NCBI RefSeq assembly: GCF_900215655.1
Contig: NZ_OBEN01000002.1
Location: 124,001-188,000 of the forward strand
From: Hydrogenobacter hydrogenophilus
GTDB lineage: Bacteria; Aquificota; Aquificia; Aquificales; Aquificaceae
Reading direction: 5' to 3'
DNA: 64,000 nt
Shown here piece by piece: positions 32,323-52,864 of this stretch. Every line of letters begins with the position of its first letter. Position 1 is the stretch's first letter. Position numbers and translations under genes: made by a program. Below the pieces are notes generated by a model, which saw only the letters and a program-made list of their open reading frames with translations, ran no database searches and was not told the origin of the DNA.

Positions 32323-33572
32323 GTGCTTTACTTTTTATACTGATATTTCTTACTTTATCTTTTGGAGGTGAAAAAGTGCACAGCGTAGTGCTTGATAATG
32401 GTGTAAGGCTAATAATAAAACAGACTCACGGAAAGGGCATAGTTGCGGGTGTTATATTCATAAAGTCTGGTGTGCATGGAGAGAGCAAAAAAGGTATTAC
32501 AAATCTTATCACAACACTTCTTACAAAAGGTACAAAAAAATACAGTTCTTATGACATAGCCAGTGCCTTTGAAGATTATGGTGGCAGTATATCCGCAAAT
32601 ACTACAGATGATTATGTAGAGATAGCTTTTGCGACAAAAGTGGAAGGTCTGCAAAGAGGGCTTGAAGTGATAAGAAGTATGCTTTACGAACCTGCATTCA
32701 ACGAAGAAGACATCAGCAGAGAAAAGACAAACATAATAAGTGCTATAAGGTCCAAAAGAGAAAGGGGATATGAGCTTGCCATGGAACATCTTAGGACACT
32801 AACCTTTAAAGGAACTGATTACGAAGTTTCTCCCTTGGGAAAAGAGGAAGACATAAAGAGCATAACCAAAGATGACCTGATAAACAGATGGAAGGATCTG
32901 CTCAAAGGTGGAAGCGTAGTGGTCAGCATAGTTGGAGATATACAACCTGAGAAGGTAGAGACTATGATAAAGCCCTTGTTTTTAGAAATGCCTATAGGTG
33001 CCTTTGACATTGGTAAAAAGGATGTTTATATACAGACAAGTCAATTACAGAAGGTAAAAAGGCCAGGTGCACAGACAACCCTGCTATGCGCTTTTAATGC
33101 CCCAAAGATAGAGGATAAGGACTACTACAGTTTTAAAGTGCTTGTGAGTGCTTTGGGAAATGGCATGACTTCAAAGCTCTTCAAAGAGTTAAGAGAAAAG
33201 AAGGGATACGCTTATGCCACCTACGCTTACTATCCTACGAGGCTCCTTTCTCCTAGAATGTTTGCTTATGTGGGAACCTCACCTGAAAAAAGTCAATCCG
33301 CTTTAGAAGACCTCATAAAAGTAGTTCAATCTTCAGAGCTTACTCAAGAAGATGTAAAGCTTGCTAAAAGCAAGCTTGTGGGTGATTTCCTCCTTGATCA
33401 TCAAACAAGACTCAAACAGGCATGGTATTTAGGATTTTACGAGATCATGGGTTTGGGTTGGAAGATGGATGAACTCTATCCAGAGAAAGTAGAAAGCGTA
33501 AGCTATCAGGAGGTTCTTGAGGTTCAGAAGAAATATTTAGACAAACATCAGTGTGTTGTGGTGGAGCCCTAA
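32319..33572 (+). CDS. M16 peptidase-like protein without zinc motif
   Basis: 417 residues with a short signal sequence. The fold matches its upstream neighbour (GGSISANTTDDYVEI; LREKKGYAYATYAYY), but where H-x-x-E-H should be it has KKGITNLITTLLTKGTKKYS, so it cannot bind zinc in the standard way. It probably forms the non-catalytic partner of the upstream protease. 3' end overlaps the Fnr-type gene by 4 bp. Confidence 0.9.
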   Translation: MSALLFILIFLTLSFGGEKVHSVVLDNGVRLIIKQTHGKGIVAGVIFIKSGVHGESKKGITNLITTLLTKGTKKYSSYDIASAFEDYGGSISANTTDDYVEIAFATKVEGLQRGLEVIRSMLYEPAFNEEDISREKTNIISAIRSKRERGYELAMEHLRTLTFKGTDYEVSPLGKEEDIKSITKDDLINRWKDLLKGGSVVVSIVGDIQPEKVETMIKPLFLEMPIGAFDIGKKDVYIQTSQLQKVKRPGAQTTLLCAFNAPKIEDKDYYSFKVLVSALGNGMTSKLFKELREKKGYAYATYAYYPTRLLSPRMFAYVGTSPEKSQSALEDLIKVVQSSELTQEDVKLAKSKLVGDFLLDHQTRLKQAWYLGFYEIMGLGWKMDELYPEKVESVSYQEVLEVQKKYLDKHQCVVVEP

Positions 33573-34243
33573 AAACTAAGCTCCTTCTTTAATCTTTCCA
33601 CATCCTTTATTATTATCTCACCCCTTCCCAGCTGAATTATTTCATCTTTTTCTAAATCCTTCAAGAGTCTTGATACAACCTCTCTGACGGTTCCTATGTC
33701 TTTAGCTATATCTTCGTGCGTTAGTCTAAGAATCTTACTCTTTAGAGACTTTTCGTAAAGGTACTTTATGAGTCTTTTGTCCACCCTTTTTGACAAGAGC
33801 TCGTTGAGCATAACAAACAGCTCGTAAAAGTTTTTGGCTATCATCTCAAGGACAAAGTTTCTCCAGTAAGAGTACTTTTCAAAAAGATCTCTCACCGCGC
33901 GCACATCTAAAAGAAGCCCTGTTGTATCTACTTCAGCAACTGCGTAAGCCGGGTAAGGGATGTTTTTTAGTATGGAGATGTTGGTAAACATGCAAGTCTC
34001 ACCTGCAGTTATGCGATACAGGAAGATCTCCCTTCCGCTTTCTAAAAGTAAGTAAACTTTTAAAGAACCTTCCAAAACTATGGGGGATGCTTGGCATAAA
34101 CTTCCCGGAGATCCCACTATGGTGTTTGCCGGTACATGCACCTTCTGAGATCTTGTAGAAAGTTCTTTTTTAAAGTCTTCTGGTGCAAAAGGAAACAGTT
34201 TGTGCGCGTAATAGTATATCTCTTTTTCTCTCTCTTCAACCAT
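33569..34243 (-). CDS. Crp/Fnr-family transcriptional regulator
   Basis: 224 residues: cyclic-nucleotide-type beta barrel (about 25-135, with GETCMFT) and a C-terminal winged helix (about 160-215) with recognition segment LTHEDIAKDIGTVREVVSRLLKDLE. The helix-turn-helix has the E-x-x-S-R pattern of Fnr/Dnr proteins that read TTGAT half sites. There is no N-terminal cysteine cluster, so it is not an Fe-S Fnr; Cys at about 49 and 84 are the only ones. TATAAT (34255-34250) overlaps the pyrE stop and lies 6 nt before the ATG. Confidence 0.88.
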   Translation of the reverse strand: MVEEREKEIYYYAHKLFPFAPEDFKKELSTRSQKVHVPANTIVGSPGSLCQASPIVLEGSLKVYLLLESGREIFLYRITAGETCMFTNISILKNIPYPAYAVAEVDTTGLLLDVRAVRDLFEKYSYWRNFVLEMIAKNFYELFVMLNELLSKRVDKRLIKYLYEKSLKSKILRLTHEDIAKDIGTVREVVSRLLKDLEKDEIIQLGRGEIIIKDVERLKKELSF

Positions 34244-48691: not shown

Positions 48692-49417
48692 TTATTCCTC
48701 TTCGTACATCTCTTGATAACGCTCTTCGTTCTCTTCCACTATATCCATTATCACGTTGTAAAGGTTAGGATCAAGCTTTTCAAGCATCTCAAAGATACCG
48801 GTTTCTCTCCATATGGTGTACATCTCTATAGCTGTCTCCAAAGATACTTCCCAAGCGGTTTTGACAGACTTTCCTACATCAAAAGGTATTGCCATTCTCT
48901 TGGCTCTTAAGTTCTCCATGTTATCTGCCATCTTGGGACCCCAGTCTGGGAAGAAGTCGGGCTGTAGCATGTCTGCTGATAGCTGGTTTCCTGTGGTCAT
49001 CACCTTGAGAAGAACTCTTCCGTAAGGCTTAAGAAGATCCTTTGTAGCTTCAAAAGCATTACGCACAGCCACTTCTCTCATTATGGCAACAAGTCCACCT
49101 GGGTTGTTGACAAAGGGACAGCGTATCCAACAGGTAAAGCATTGAGAACACGCCCATATGTACTCGTGCATCATGTCATACAGAACTTCTACATCTTCTT
49201 CAAGGAACCTTTGGACTATTTCTCTAGGAGAATAATCAAAGAATCTATTTGATGGACAGGATGCGGTACAAACTCCACAGTTAAGGCAACCAAACAGGTA
49301 CTCTTTAAAACGAAAGTCTGACTTTACTTCCTCAATGATCCTTACCTTTTCTTCCCACGGAACGCTTTTAGTTTTTTCCGATATGGGAAGGTTGTATCCA
49401 TAAATATGTCCATCCAT
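48692..49417 (-). CDS. shdrC1: sHdrC1, iron-sulfur subunit
   Basis: 241 residues. Two 4Fe-4S motifs: C-L-N-C-G-V-C-T-A-S-C-P at about 44 and C-S-Q-C-F-T-C-W-I-R-C-P at about 89. The C-terminus is acidic and helical (DIVEENEERYQEMYEEE). First sHdr subunit gene after the sulfur-carrier genes, preceded by a 136-bp control region. RBS TAAGGAGG 9 nt before the ATG. Confidence 0.9.
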   Translation of the reverse strand: MDGHIYGYNLPISEKTKSVPWEEKVRIIEEVKSDFRFKEYLFGCLNCGVCTASCPSNRFFDYSPREIVQRFLEEDVEVLYDMMHEYIWACSQCFTCWIRCPFVNNPGGLVAIMREVAVRNAFEATKDLLKPYGRVLLKVMTTGNQLSADMLQPDFFPDWGPKMADNMENLRAKRMAIPFDVGKSVKTAWEVSLETAIEMYTIWRETGIFEMLEKLDPNLYNVIMDIVEENEERYQEMYEEE

Positions 49418-49553
49418 AGCCTATACCTCCTTAGGCAGTTCTACATAAAAAAATGTAGGGTATTGGTACCTCAAGTCAATTAAGTTTTGCTTATGAGCAT
49501 ATAAGTATATGCTTATAAATTTGCTTATAAATTTCCCATAAAAACAAGTAGGG
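49418..49553 (-). promoter_or_regulatory. Control region upstream of shdrC1 with tandem repeats
   Basis: 136 bp. Minus-strand promoter candidate: TTGACT (49479-49474), 16 bp, TACATT (49457-49452). Upstream of it, TGCTTATAAATT occurs twice in tandem on the plus strand (49510-49521, 49522-49533) with a third TGCTTAT at 49488, and a palindrome GCATATAAGTATATGC spans 49497-49512. A hairpin CTACAT/ATGTAG (49441-49458) follows the promoter. The repeats sit where an activator or an ArsR-type sHdr repressor would bind. Confidence 0.5.
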
Positions 49554-49979
49554 TTAAAGCGTGATAACCGCATACTCACCGCTCATCAATTTATCAAGAA
49601 AGGCAGCACCACCTATGATCCCATCACACAGCTCTGGGTTCACGTCTTCCTTTTTGTATATTTCCGTCAAGTCAAGAGAAGGCACACACAGATATATCTT
49701 TACACCAGCTTCTTTCGCCATTTTTATAAAGTCATAAACGGTTTGTTCTACGCCTGGCCTTACTTTCACCTTTTTGGCGTTATCTCTCATAAGCAAGAAA
49801 CCTGCTTCCGAAGTTATTACCATTTCCACCTCATAGTCCATGGTAGTTGCTGCGGTAGCAAGGAAAAAGGGAGCACCAGCTTGAGGGTTTATGAGTTCTC
49901 CCGTTGCAGGCTCAGCCCTCTCAAAGAAAGGTACAGTTAAAATGTAGAAGATGAGCTTTTCATAACCTTGTGCAGCCAT
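49554..49979 (-). CDS. DsrE-family protein
   Basis: 141 residues. DsrE fold; candidate sulfur-binding cysteine in VKIYLCVPSLDLTEIY at about residue 97. A second cysteine is in PELCDGIIGGAAFL. Between dsrE3 (13 bp) and the shdr control region. Expected to relay persulfide sulfur in the cytoplasm with TusA and DsrE3. Confidence 0.8.
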   Translation of the reverse strand: MAAQGYEKLIFYILTVPFFERAEPATGELINPQAGAPFFLATAATTMDYEVEMVITSEAGFLLMRDNAKKVKVRPGVEQTVYDFIKMAKEAGVKIYLCVPSLDLTEIYKKEDVNPELCDGIIGGAAFLDKLMSGEYAVITL

Positions 49980-49992
49980 CTTTATCTCCTCC

Positions 49993-50526
49993 TTATACGA
50001 AGATAATCATAGGTTTGTCTGCTTCTAACACATAGTTCATAAAAGTTGCTGCTCCTGCAGGAGGTTCAAGACCTTCTATGAGGTCTTCGTACTTGTATCC
50101 GAAGAGCTCCATAGTCATTTGACAGGGAATAAGCTTTACATCAGCTTCTTTACACGCTTCTATAAGCTCGGGAATACTTGCAACTCCATGCTCTTTTATG
50201 GTTTTTTTCATCATAAAGGTCATGAGGTCTGTCATTCCCGGTATTATGCCCATGATCTGAGGAGGTCCGGGAAAGATGGAAGATATGGTGTTAGTTATGG
50301 CATTCTGCATAGATGGTGGAAAAGCCATAGGCATAGCTGGATTTCCTATGGGTGCAATTTTTAGTTCATTCATCTTTTTTTTGTGTATTATGTTTAATCC
50401 GTAAAAGGTAAAAAAGATGGCGGTTTCTATACCCAAAGAGGCTGCAGTTGAAGCAAGAATCAAGGGTGGATATGCCATATCAAGAGTTCCTTTTGTAGCT
50501 ATTATGGCGAGCCTTTCAGTAGCCAT
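49993..50526 (-). CDS. dsrE3: DsrE3-type sulfurtransferase
   Basis: 177 residues. DsrE fold with an insertion of about 45 residues rich in Pro, Met and Ile (PGPPQIMGIIPGMTDLMTFMMKK) typical of the DsrE3A group, possibly membrane-touching. The conserved cysteine is in VKLIPCQMTMELFGYKYED at about residue 139. DsrE3A-TusA pairs are the known sulfur carriers linked to sHdr loci. Confidence 0.87.
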   Translation of the reverse strand: MATERLAIIATKGTLDMAYPPLILASTAASLGIETAIFFTFYGLNIIHKKKMNELKIAPIGNPAMPMAFPPSMQNAITNTISSIFPGPPQIMGIIPGMTDLMTFMMKKTIKEHGVASIPELIEACKEADVKLIPCQMTMELFGYKYEDLIEGLEPPAGAATFMNYVLEADKPMIIFV

Positions 50527-50538
50527 CTTGTTCCCTCC

Positions 50539-50775
50539 TTATTTCTTCCTAAGGTAAAAGATGATCTTACCTCCCTCCTCAACAGTTTCCAAAAGCTCAT
50601 GACCCGTTCTGCTACAAAAGGCAGGTATGTCTGCCTTGGCACCGGGGTCTGTGGTTATGACTTCAAGGATCTGGCCAGACTGAAGTTCTTCAAGAGCTTT
50701 TTTAGTCTTAAGGACGGGAAGTGGACAGTTAAGACCTGAAGCGTCAAGCACCTTGTCTGGTGTTATTGTAGCCAT
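50539..50775 (-). CDS. tusA: Sulfur carrier TusA
   Basis: 78 residues from ATG 50775, with TTAGGAGG 8 nt upstream; the GTG at 50784 touches the RBS and is rejected. Sulfur-accepting C-P-x-P motif in GLNCPLPVLKTKKAL. First gene of the sHdr operon. Its 5' untranslated sequence is almost identical to that of shdrB1 (AAGGAGGTGTTTATC). Confidence 0.93.
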   Translation of the reverse strand: MATITPDKVLDASGLNCPLPVLKTKKALEELQSGQILEVITTDPGAKADIPAFCSRTGHELLETVEEGGKIIFYLRKK

Positions 50776-50799
50776 GATAAACACCTCCTAAGTTCTTAA

Positions 50800-50834
50800 T
50801 AACAGTATTATAATATAGTAAACCTCTCTGTCAA
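50800..50834 (-). promoter_or_regulatory. Strong sigma-70-type promoter of the sHdr operon
   Basis: On the minus strand, TTGACA at 50834-50829, 16-bp spacer, TATAAT at 50812-50807, predicted start near 50800. This is the only exact consensus pair I found in the window. It gives a leader of about 25 nt with a good RBS, unlike the leaderless operon heads elsewhere. Confidence 0.7.
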
Positions 50835-50874
50835 AGAACACAATAGTTTTTTTTAAAGTAAGTATAAGATAAGC

Positions 50875-51576
50875 TTATAGTGTTTGAATTCTCTCAAGCA
50901 CTTTTTTATAACCTTCTGTTAGGTCTCCTAAATCAAACCTGAATCTGTCCTTGTCAAGCTTCTCTCCAGTTTTTAAGTCCCAAAGCCTGCATGTGTCTGG
51001 AGATATCTCGTCTACTATACCTATGTTTCCATCAGGCAATTCTCCAAACTCAAGTTTAAAGTCTACAAGCAAAAGCCCATGCTCTTTGAAAAATTCCACA
51101 AGTATCTGATTAGTCTTTAAAGCCATGCCCTTTAGGATGCTTATCTGTTCCTCCTTTAAAAGACCAAGAAGGATAATATGTTCGTAGCAAAGGAGGGGAT
51201 CGTGAAGCTCGTCCCTCTTATAAAAGAACTCCACAAGAGGTTTGCTAAGGACTTTTCCCTCTTCTATACCCAATCTTTTGCAAAGACTCCCTGCAGAAAG
51301 ATTTCTGACAACTACTTCTACATCAAACCTCCTTGCCCTCCACACGAGCATCTCCCTCTGGGAAAGCTTCCGGATAAAGTGCGTCCTTATACCCTTCTTT
51401 TCAAGAAGTTCAAAGATAAGGCTGGATATAGTGTTGTTGAGCTCTCCCTTCCCAGCTATTTCTGCTTTTTTAGTAGCATCAAAGGCGGTGGCGGTATCCT
51501 TAAAGTAAAGAATGTACTTATCTGGATCTTGGTGTTTATAAACTATCTTGGCTTTACCTTCATAAACTTTTTCCAT
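50875..51576 (-). CDS. purC: SAICAR synthetase
   Basis: 233 residues. Joins CAIR and aspartate with ATP in purine synthesis. N-terminal VYEGKAKIVY, NLSAGSLCKRLG and DFKLEFGELPDGNIGIVDEISPDTCRLWD in separate blocks are diagnostic. Single-gene unit between the sHdr promoter and the fadL terminator; TATAAT (51589-51584) lies 7 nt before the ATG. Confidence 0.96.
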   Translation of the reverse strand: MEKVYEGKAKIVYKHQDPDKYILYFKDTATAFDATKKAEIAGKGELNNTISSLIFELLEKKGIRTHFIRKLSQREMLVWRARRFDVEVVVRNLSAGSLCKRLGIEEGKVLSKPLVEFFYKRDELHDPLLCYEHIILLGLLKEEQISILKGMALKTNQILVEFFKEHGLLLVDFKLEFGELPDGNIGIVDEISPDTCRLWDLKTGEKLDKDRFRFDLGDLTEGYKKVLERIQTL

Positions 51577-51616: not shown

Positions 51617-52864
51617 TTAGAACTTCCAGTTTAAGCCAACAGATACTGCATCCTGTGCATTTTTACCCTGTACTATAAAACCAAAACCAGCGTTGTCTGT
51701 TGCGCTAACACTCTTTTCAAAGGCATGCTTGTAAGCGAGGTCCACACTAAAGGTATTTGTAAACTCATAACCCAAACCTAAGGTTATGTGCTGTTCGGTA
51801 ATGGCTGGAAAACCAACAAGGTTAAAGTAAGCAATGTTGAAATCGCTGAAAGGTGCAGAGAAGTTGGGTATGTTGTTGGCGTTCATAAGGTTTTTAGCAC
51901 CACCTCTTATAGGGGACTTACCGTAGTTATAGCCTGCCCTTAGAGCAAGCTTGGGAATGGGTCTGTACTCACCACCTATGGCTATGACCCACTGGTCTTT
52001 CCACTGAAAGTTCTTGTAGCCTTTTGCATTCTTCCAGTTTATCCAGCGTATGTCCATGCCTACCTTAAGGTTTTGCATGGGTTTTATACCTACACCAAAG
52101 GCAAACTCCTGTGGTTGTGTTAGCTTTAGGTCTTCAAATCTTCCATCACCGTTGGTGTCAAAAACCCTCTTGTACTTCATCTCTACTGGGCTTTGATATG
52201 TCAGACCTGCAAACACAAAGTCTCCCATGTTGTAGGCAAGACCTATCTGAGCACCTATACCGTAAGTCTGTGATTGTCCACCTCCCGCGTTCCAACAAGT
52301 TGTGGTAAAAGGTTGGCACATGTTTGCTCCCATGTCAAGAGAGCCATAAGCTAAGTGTATAGCACCTGACACGGAAATAGCGTCGTTTATCTTGTAGGCA
52401 AGGGCTGGTATAACTCTCATAAACTGCAGTGTAGTGTGCATATTGGCAAGTCTGGGGTCCTTGTTTCTGTAATCTACACCCATACCAGATACACCGAAAG
52501 CTCCTATACCAAAGGTAAGTTTGTCATTAATTTGATGAACTATACCCACCTCTGGTACAACAAAGACCTTTGCATCACTTGTAGCTTCTGCAGGTGGATT
52601 CATTGGACCCATAGGAGTCACATTGGTTTTTGCTTTGACATGAGGCATAAAGAGTATTCCACCAAAGCTAAGATTAAAGCCTTTATAGTAGCTCATCCAT
52701 GCTGGGTTTCTAAAGATGCTGTCTGTGGGTCCTACAGGCATACCCACACCTATACCGCCCATACCCCTTGAGGCAGGCGAAACTCCTATAAGGTTATCTC
52801 CGTTAGTGGCAAAGGACAAACCCGTGAAACCCATAAGTGCGCCCAAAAGTAGAGCCTTTCTCAT
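51617..52864 (-). CDS. OmpP1/FadL/TodX-family outer membrane porin
   Basis: 415 residues. Signal peptide (RKALLLGALMGFTGLSFA), mature N-terminus NGDNLIGVSPASRGMGGIGVGM typical of FadL/TodX, then alternating beta strands to a terminal phenylalanine (VGLNWKF). Such porins take up hydrophobic molecules. Since it lies next to the sHdr locus and shares a TGCTTATAA element upstream, uptake of sulfur compounds is a tempting but unproven idea. TATAAT at 52903-52898, leader about 27 nt with GGGAGG. Confidence 0.9.
   Translation of the reverse strand: MRKALLLGALMGFTGLSFATNGDNLIGVSPASRGMGGIGVGMPVGPTDSIFRNPAWMSYYKGFNLSFGGILFMPHVKAKTNVTPMGPMNPPAEATSDAKVFVVPEVGIVHQINDKLTFGIGAFGVSGMGVDYRNKDPRLANMHTTLQFMRVIPALAYKINDAISVSGAIHLAYGSLDMGANMCQPFTTTCWNAGGGQSQTYGIGAQIGLAYNMGDFVFAGLTYQSPVEMKYKRVFDTNGDGRFEDLKLTQPQEFAFGVGIKPMQNLKVGMDIRWINWKNAKGYKNFQWKDQWVIAIGGEYRPIPKLALRAGYNYGKSPIRGGAKNLMNANNIPNFSAPFSDFNIAYFNLVGFPAITEQHITLGLGYEFTNTFSVDLAYKHAFEKSVSATDNAGFGFIVQGKNAQDAVSVGLNWKF

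Follow-up and report, generated by a model that had tools for sequence, protein, structure and literature searches.

Upstream of shdrC1, which encodes an HdrC-like iron-sulfur subunit of the sHdr system, stands an element of about 45 bp that ends at the -35 of the gene. Judged by its sequence, it is a real, conserved promoter element, and it probably serves as an array of binding sites for a family-wide regulator of chemolithotrophic energy genes. We propose such a shared regulator because the conserved element recurs before sulfur, hydrogen and respiration genes across the Aquificaceae. Among the readings weighed here we favour, with some reservation, the one in which the promoter of the sHdr core is preceded by an array of sites where a sequence-specific transcription factor would bind and regulate energy genes. 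The source genome belongs to the Aquificaceae (family f1, genus g1 in our search for relatives); the sister families are f2 and f3.

In the window, i.e. the whole stretch of 64,000 nucleotides that was analysed, the genes lie on a single strand, in the minus-strand order tusA-dsrE2-dsrE-shdrC1-B1-A. These include tusA (50539-50784), a DsrE2-like gene (49993-50526), the DsrE-family gene upstream of the element (49554-49979) and shdrC1 (48692-49417). The 136-bp gap between the DsrE-family gene and shdrC1 holds repeats, a near-palindrome and a promoter-like site. Read on the minus strand, the element is TATAAG-N6-CTTATAT-N3-(C/T)ATAAG-N-AAAA-TTTAA. It was delimited with the alignment A1, a gap-free block of 21 distinct sequences from the upstream gaps of 30 related shdrC1 loci; read through the -35, this block is TATAAG-N6-CTTATAT-N3-(C/T)ATAAG-N-AAAA-TTTAA-TTGACTT. 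Here the conserved stretch covers 47 bp and runs into the -35 hexamer (49473-49519, minus strand), as given by A1 and by the match of profile R1 (G000:C2:173473-173516, E 6.7e-12).

The element contains four half-sites, all read on the minus strand and numbered with the start of the -35 hexamer as -35. ATAAG at about -72 to -68 (49512-49516) is invariant in 21/21 A1 rows. It is followed by an inverted CTTAT at about -61 to -57 (49501-49505), with an invariant TTA and a first C that becomes T in some genera, and by ATAAG at about -50 to -46 (49490-49494), with an invariant ATAA. CTTAA at about -40 to -36 (49480-49484; TT invariant) abuts the -35. This last half-site is a degenerate CTTAT, and several promoters of sox, cox and hydrogenase genes have CTTAT or TTTAT at the corresponding position. 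The half-sites alternate in orientation, with starts 11, 11 and 10 bp (one helical turn) apart, and the two proximal pairs have their centres near -43 and about -53.5 to -54. Specific G/C letters are kept at the box edges, with the G at column 8 invariant in 21/21 A1 rows. The promoter reported in the first-pass annotation, TTGACT-N16-TACATT on the minus strand (49479-49452), is present as described. Its -35-like hexamer TTGACT (49474-49479) has the same position in relatives, and its -10-like hexamer TACATT (49452-49457, 16-bp spacer) corresponds to a TANNTT-like sequence at spacer 16 in 19/21 sequences, the other two being one base off (15 or 17). The 41-bp element scores 53 at shdrC1, compared with at most 0.7 upstream of the window's 56 other ORFs of 150 aa or more. 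Hence, it is the arrangement of sites, and not a single 12-mer, that exceeds chance. The broader claim of a multi-site control region beside the shdrC1 promoter holds as well, in the form of the conserved half-site array and the -35/-10 pair, which are kept in relatives.

Two further repeats were observed in the gap. An inverted repeat, CTACAT-N6-ATGTAG (49442-49459), lies over and after the -10 and is partly kept within the genus only. A direct repeat on the minus strand, ACCCTACATTTTTTTATG and ACCCTACTTGTTTTTATG (49444-49461 and 49537-49554, 16/18 identical), has one copy over the -10 and the other directly past the DsrE stop codon; the upstream copy was not seen in the upstream gaps of shdrC1 in relatives.

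The element is far better conserved than its surroundings. Its mean identity between genera is 0.75, against 0.39 at the fourfold sites of shdrC1, 0.38 in the downstream flank and 0.34 in the upstream flank (183 pairs), and this conservation, compared with neutral sites, spans seven genera. We scored its presence with profiles built without the genus tested, for which the highest shuffle score anywhere was 20.1: 26 of the 30 family loci score 23.6-49.5, one is partial at 8.3, and three offer no room. The three Hydrogenobaculum-type loci (g10) lack the element at shdrC1 because the gap between the DsrE gene and shdrC1, only 13 bp long, cannot hold it. R1 matches at E ≤ 0.03 in 51 of 61 family genomes. 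A second collection, which overlaps the first, comprised 80 named shdrC1 loci, 33 of them Aquificaceae-type and 47 relatives from other phyla. Scores above 20 were found for 27 of the 33 Aquificaceae-type records (the six below are three Hydrogenobaculum, L294, L310 and L315), and the element was absent from the 47 relatives of other phyla (best score 10.9).

The tandem repeat emphasized in the first-pass annotation is a different case. Two exact copies of TGCTTATAAATT do stand back to back on the plus strand (49510-49521 and 49522-49533, together 49510-49533), and a partial third copy, TGCTTATG, is found at 49488-49495. The sequence described as a palindrome, GCATATAAGTATATGC (49498-49513), has two perfect 7-bp arms; because these flank a central AG, it is a near-palindrome and not a full one. 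The lone 12-mer was rejected as a functional unit since it shows no enrichment in the window over shuffles (11 occurrences with at most two mismatches, 11.7 expected). The signature of the duplication, ATAAG-N7-ATAAG, occurs in 1/30 family shdrC1 loci, the present genome, and in 0/33 Aquificaceae-type records of the second, overlapping collection. The extra ATAAG that stems from this strain-specific 12-bp tandem duplication (49524-49528, minus strand) is thus absent from the other 29 loci and the 33 named records. Checking for conservation upstream of shdrC1 in relatives therefore separated two things, a tandem that is private and an underlying control region that is kept. By this comparison of sequences, the 12-bp tandem is the least important part of the region and private to this genome, where it would add one further half-site at shdrC1.

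A relative of the element lies upstream of tusA (50839-50880, minus strand), with the sequence ATAAG-N5-CTTAT...AAAAA-CTATTG. Among matches in the 64-kb window it ranks second, with a score of 15.1 against 3.0 for the place that follows, and it is colinear with the shdrC1 element, N5 replacing N6. R1 alone missed this N5-spaced site, and spacing variants were therefore used in later scoring. The tusA promoter, TTGACA-N16-TATAAT (50807-50834, minus strand), has 12/12 consensus matches and lies about one helical turn below the end of the tusA element in this window, so that the exact register there is uncertain. In 10 of 20 genomes, among them all nine that belong to g1, g2 and g9, the tusA site outscores every one of 200 shuffles; in the other 10 the scores are weak. 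It had been proposed that the control region would set the sHdr core apart from tusA-dsrE. This is unlikely, given the colinear relative at the tusA promoter and the Hydrogenobaculum-type locus L055 (one genome read), where an element relative stands one gene upstream, before a DsrE-like gene, and not at shdrC1. With a relative of the element at tusA as well, the sHdr core and tusA-dsrE probably share their regulation, and the shdrC1 region is better read as one among several sites of a shared putative regulator. Further upstream of the sHdr cluster, the promoter of a FadL/TodX-type outer-membrane protein gene (51617-52864) shows a weak trace of the element, and the promoters of its orthologs in other genera (L081, L096, L128) have the element.

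The first-pass annotation had suggested looking for the repeat at other sulfur genes. Searches run with the element profiles found relatives before tusA and soxW-soxY. Beyond shdrC1, R1 picked out the regions upstream of soxW-soxY, cox genes and FadL-type porins, as well as those of a flavocytochrome-like gene and a radical SAM gene; a NiFe-hydrogenase small subunit gave a weak hit. The hydrogenase genes match PF01058 (Pfam); their finer names are our assumption. We then used R2, a wider profile of 20 rows, and R3, the same sites reversed as a control, on 37 genomes. At E ≤ 0.05, the 23 Aquificaceae genomes gave 89 matches with R2 and 15 with R3, and the 14 genomes of the two sister families gave 15 and 10, counts that are partly circular because 9 of the 20 R2 rows derive from R1 hits, four of them in genomes then searched; A+T-rich sequence also raises chance identity, an effect that the reversed control covers in part only. 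These searches with the reversed control placed relatives before two NiFe-hydrogenase small-subunit genes, cytochrome oxidase and SQR/Rieske genes.

We fetched 40 further R2 sites of the family, of which 28 are intergenic and 12 coding by our reading (8 within long ORFs and 4 in nuoK, before nuoL; nuoK was also identified by reading). Half of them (20/40) adjoin sulfur, hydrogenase or electron-transport genes, namely soxW (3), hydrogenase 1 (3), hydrogenase 2 (5), Rieske/SQR (3), cytochrome oxidase (3), and one each for a DsrE-like gene, a molybdopterin oxidoreductase and a radical SAM gene, with names taken from Pfam matches or, failing these, from reading the sequence. Among the remaining eight intergenic sites are two at hemC, one at a FadL-type porin, one at a rhomboid-like gene and some at unknowns, and no ribosomal or translation gene was found among the 40 annotated sites. 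By comparison, 3/14 of the reversed-profile sites fetched are intergenic, two of them before FadL-type genes, and 11/14 are coding; the six sites fetched from sister families are all coding.

Orthologous promoters were tested with a profile built from shdrC1 only, with spacing variants, and with a threshold above all 100 shuffles. It was passed by 9 of 20 soxW promoters (11/20 without a clear site) and, for hydrogenase 1, by 8 of 17 family loci (9/17 without a clear site) versus 0/13 in the sister families, often flush with TTGACA. For Rieske, the counts are 5/23 family loci (18/23 without a clear site) versus 0/7, and the support for Rieske/SQR promoters comes mainly from one genus. By these counts, several genera clearly share the element, in sequence terms, at sox and hydrogenase 1; elsewhere the sharing is patchy. 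We also observed an array CTTAT-N7-ATAAG-N5-CTTAT at L115 (G000:C13:9656-9688), in the divergent promoter of another gene for a hydrogenase-like small subunit, the second of this kind; letter by letter, this promoter is very similar in L107, L114, L122 and L123. ATAAG/CTTAT-like arrays stand right before the start of a conserved protein of about 150 aa in two genera (L087 19699, L176 396608); the L087 copy has no Pfam match.

Other processes might produce such a region. An extended UP element, i.e. phased A+T tracts bound by the C-terminal domains of RNA polymerase alpha, would make a strong promoter without a dedicated regulator, and the position (-72 to -36), the A+T richness, seen also at about -60 to -40, and the 11-bp helical phasing all fit it. 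AAAA-TTTAA beside the -35 resembles a proximal UP subsite. We nevertheless consider this unlikely, as A+T tracts do not readily account for the symmetry of the half-sites or the G/C letters at their edges (column 8 in all 21 rows), nor for sites that are mainly at energy genes (0/40 annotated R2 sites at ribosomal or translation genes) and a score below 1 at the 56 other ORF starts in the window. That the stretch between the DsrE gene and shdrC1 is transcribed into an RNA element, such as a hairpin attenuator or a processing site, is very improbable. Inverted repeats are present, but the folding is ordinary (z -0.63; 44/200 shuffles fold as well), an Rfam search of the window gave two tRNAs and nothing else, and an RNA leader was rejected on these two grounds. 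Moreover, A-U stems would presumably melt at the growth temperature of a thermophile, and the element ends at the conserved -35/-10 pair and is therefore mostly outside the transcript of that promoter. A chance A+T-rich repeat without function would explain the unenriched lone 12-mer and the private tandem copy, but not conservation across seven genera relative to neutral sites, nor presence throughout the family. This reading is refuted for the element and stands for the extra tandem copy, and as an account of the region we give it almost no credence.

A repressor operator deserves separate consideration. An ArsR- or DeoR-type sensor of sulfane sulfur or metal might bind there and be released when reduced sulfur is present, as happens with sHdrR and SoxR in Hyphomicrobium. 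The half-sites are inverted, which fits an operator, and the family encodes a cysteine-conserved ArsR beside trxA as well as, in two genera, a DeoR/NosL protein whose gene diverges from tusA. The sites lie upstream of the -35, however, and not over the promoter, and this is the usual position for an activator. According to the accessible parts of PMC10451225 and PMC12423496, the shdr and sox genes of Hyphomicrobium are under the control of ArsR repressors, but the former describes SoxR as confined to Proteobacteria. Taken together, these points make repression at this site quite unlikely.

Several proteins were considered as the factor of the favoured binding array. The leading candidate has a DeoR-type HTH and a NosL-like cysteine-rich domain (HTH_DeoR and NosL in Pfam; L146, G000:C2:201786-202355, orthologs L137-L166), and this NosL-like half is a candidate cysteine-rich sensor. 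It has matches in 23/23 Aquificaceae genomes, in 8/8 of sister family f3 and in 0/6 of f2. Its gene is divergent from tusA in g3 and g6, lies near an sHdr-type thioredoxin gene in g8, and adjoins a TusA-like gene in several f3 genomes. Two observations speak against it: G001 retains the element although its copy of the gene has an in-frame stop, and in f3 the protein is present but the element was not seen. ArsR-type matches occur in 15/15 genomes searched. In G012 one of them lies some 5.5 kb away from shdrC1; several other ArsR-type genes stand elsewhere, before trxA. A small ArsR (about 95-112 aa; L187, L189, L191, L197, L198) has the conserved cysteine motifs QCV and ICYY. Its gene is directly before trxA in several Aquificaceae genera, and it is a possible thiol sensor. 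A Crp/Fnr factor, suggested in the first-pass annotation alongside ArsR-family regulators, does not match the half-sites, which read ATAAG/CTTAT and not TGTGA-N6-TCACA (Crp consensus) or TTGAT-N4-ATCAA (Fnr consensus). The Crp/Fnr gene of the window (33569-34243) was rejected: Crp-type genes occur in 15/15 genomes searched, sister families included, and its recognition helix REVVSR, which we take to be Fnr-like, gives no pointer to ATAAG. Another Crp-type protein, of about 240 aa and likewise represented in the three families, is a further candidate.

We infer the existence of the factor because the element is sequence-specific and symmetric, and activation rather than repression solely because of its position. 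One dimeric or oligomeric factor would bind the ATAAG/CTTAT half-sites side by side on a single face of the DNA, and its subunits would contact RNA polymerase from upstream, at about -43 and -54. The bound factor would then most likely act as an activator, and may adjust the sHdr, tusA-dsrE, sox, hydrogenase and terminal-oxidase genes jointly to the redox state or to whichever electron donor is available. More tentatively, and at less than even chances, one Aquificaceae-wide regulator, with the DeoR-HTH/NosL protein as candidate, could co-ordinate chemolithotrophic energy metabolism as a whole (sHdr, TusA-DsrE, Sox, NiFe hydrogenases, SQR/bc1 and terminal oxidase) via phased arrays at the -35.

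Little is known of how sulfur and hydrogen oxidation are regulated in deep-branching hyperthermophilic chemolithoautotrophs. The accessible text of PMC10451225 includes its authors' suggestion that Aquificota have little need for sophisticated regulation; a family-wide element common to sulfur, hydrogen and respiratory promoters argues against this view. The 45-bp element also provides a concrete bait for finding the regulator. Our literature search, whose coverage left out most subscription journals, found no published description of the element or its regulator; Shine-Dalgarno and Pribnow motifs for Aquificales are given in the accessible part of PMC4227106. The motif is new as far as the searched literature goes, and ordinary as a kind of element.

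The array resembles known systems in part. Like UP elements, it is A+T-rich DNA immediately 5' of the -35; unlike them, it has sequence-specific letters, symmetry and a concentration at energy genes. As in CRP/FNR class I and II activator sites, inverted half-sites (5-N6-5 or 5-N5-5) lie upstream of the -35, but the element has three or four alternating half-sites one helical turn apart, and ATAAG is neither TGTGA (CRP) nor TTGAT (FNR). The SurR motif, GTTnnnAAC, also differs from ATAAG/CTTAT. The SurR regulon of Thermococcales is a further case of a sulfur-responsive regulator of energy metabolism in hyperthermophiles (PMC12162507, in its accessible part), although SurR is an archaeal factor. 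A functional parallel is offered by the operators of the ArsR-family repressors sHdrR and SoxR (both treated in PMC12423496) in Hyphomicrobium denitrificans, where shdr and sox are likewise controlled from intergenic repeats. The accessible text of the sHdrR/SoxR papers mentions no ATAAG/CTTAT motif, and a text search of the accessible part of PMC12423496 did not return 'Aquific'. Unlike these operators, the Aquificaceae element is also found at hydrogenase and oxidase promoters, and sits upstream of the -35.
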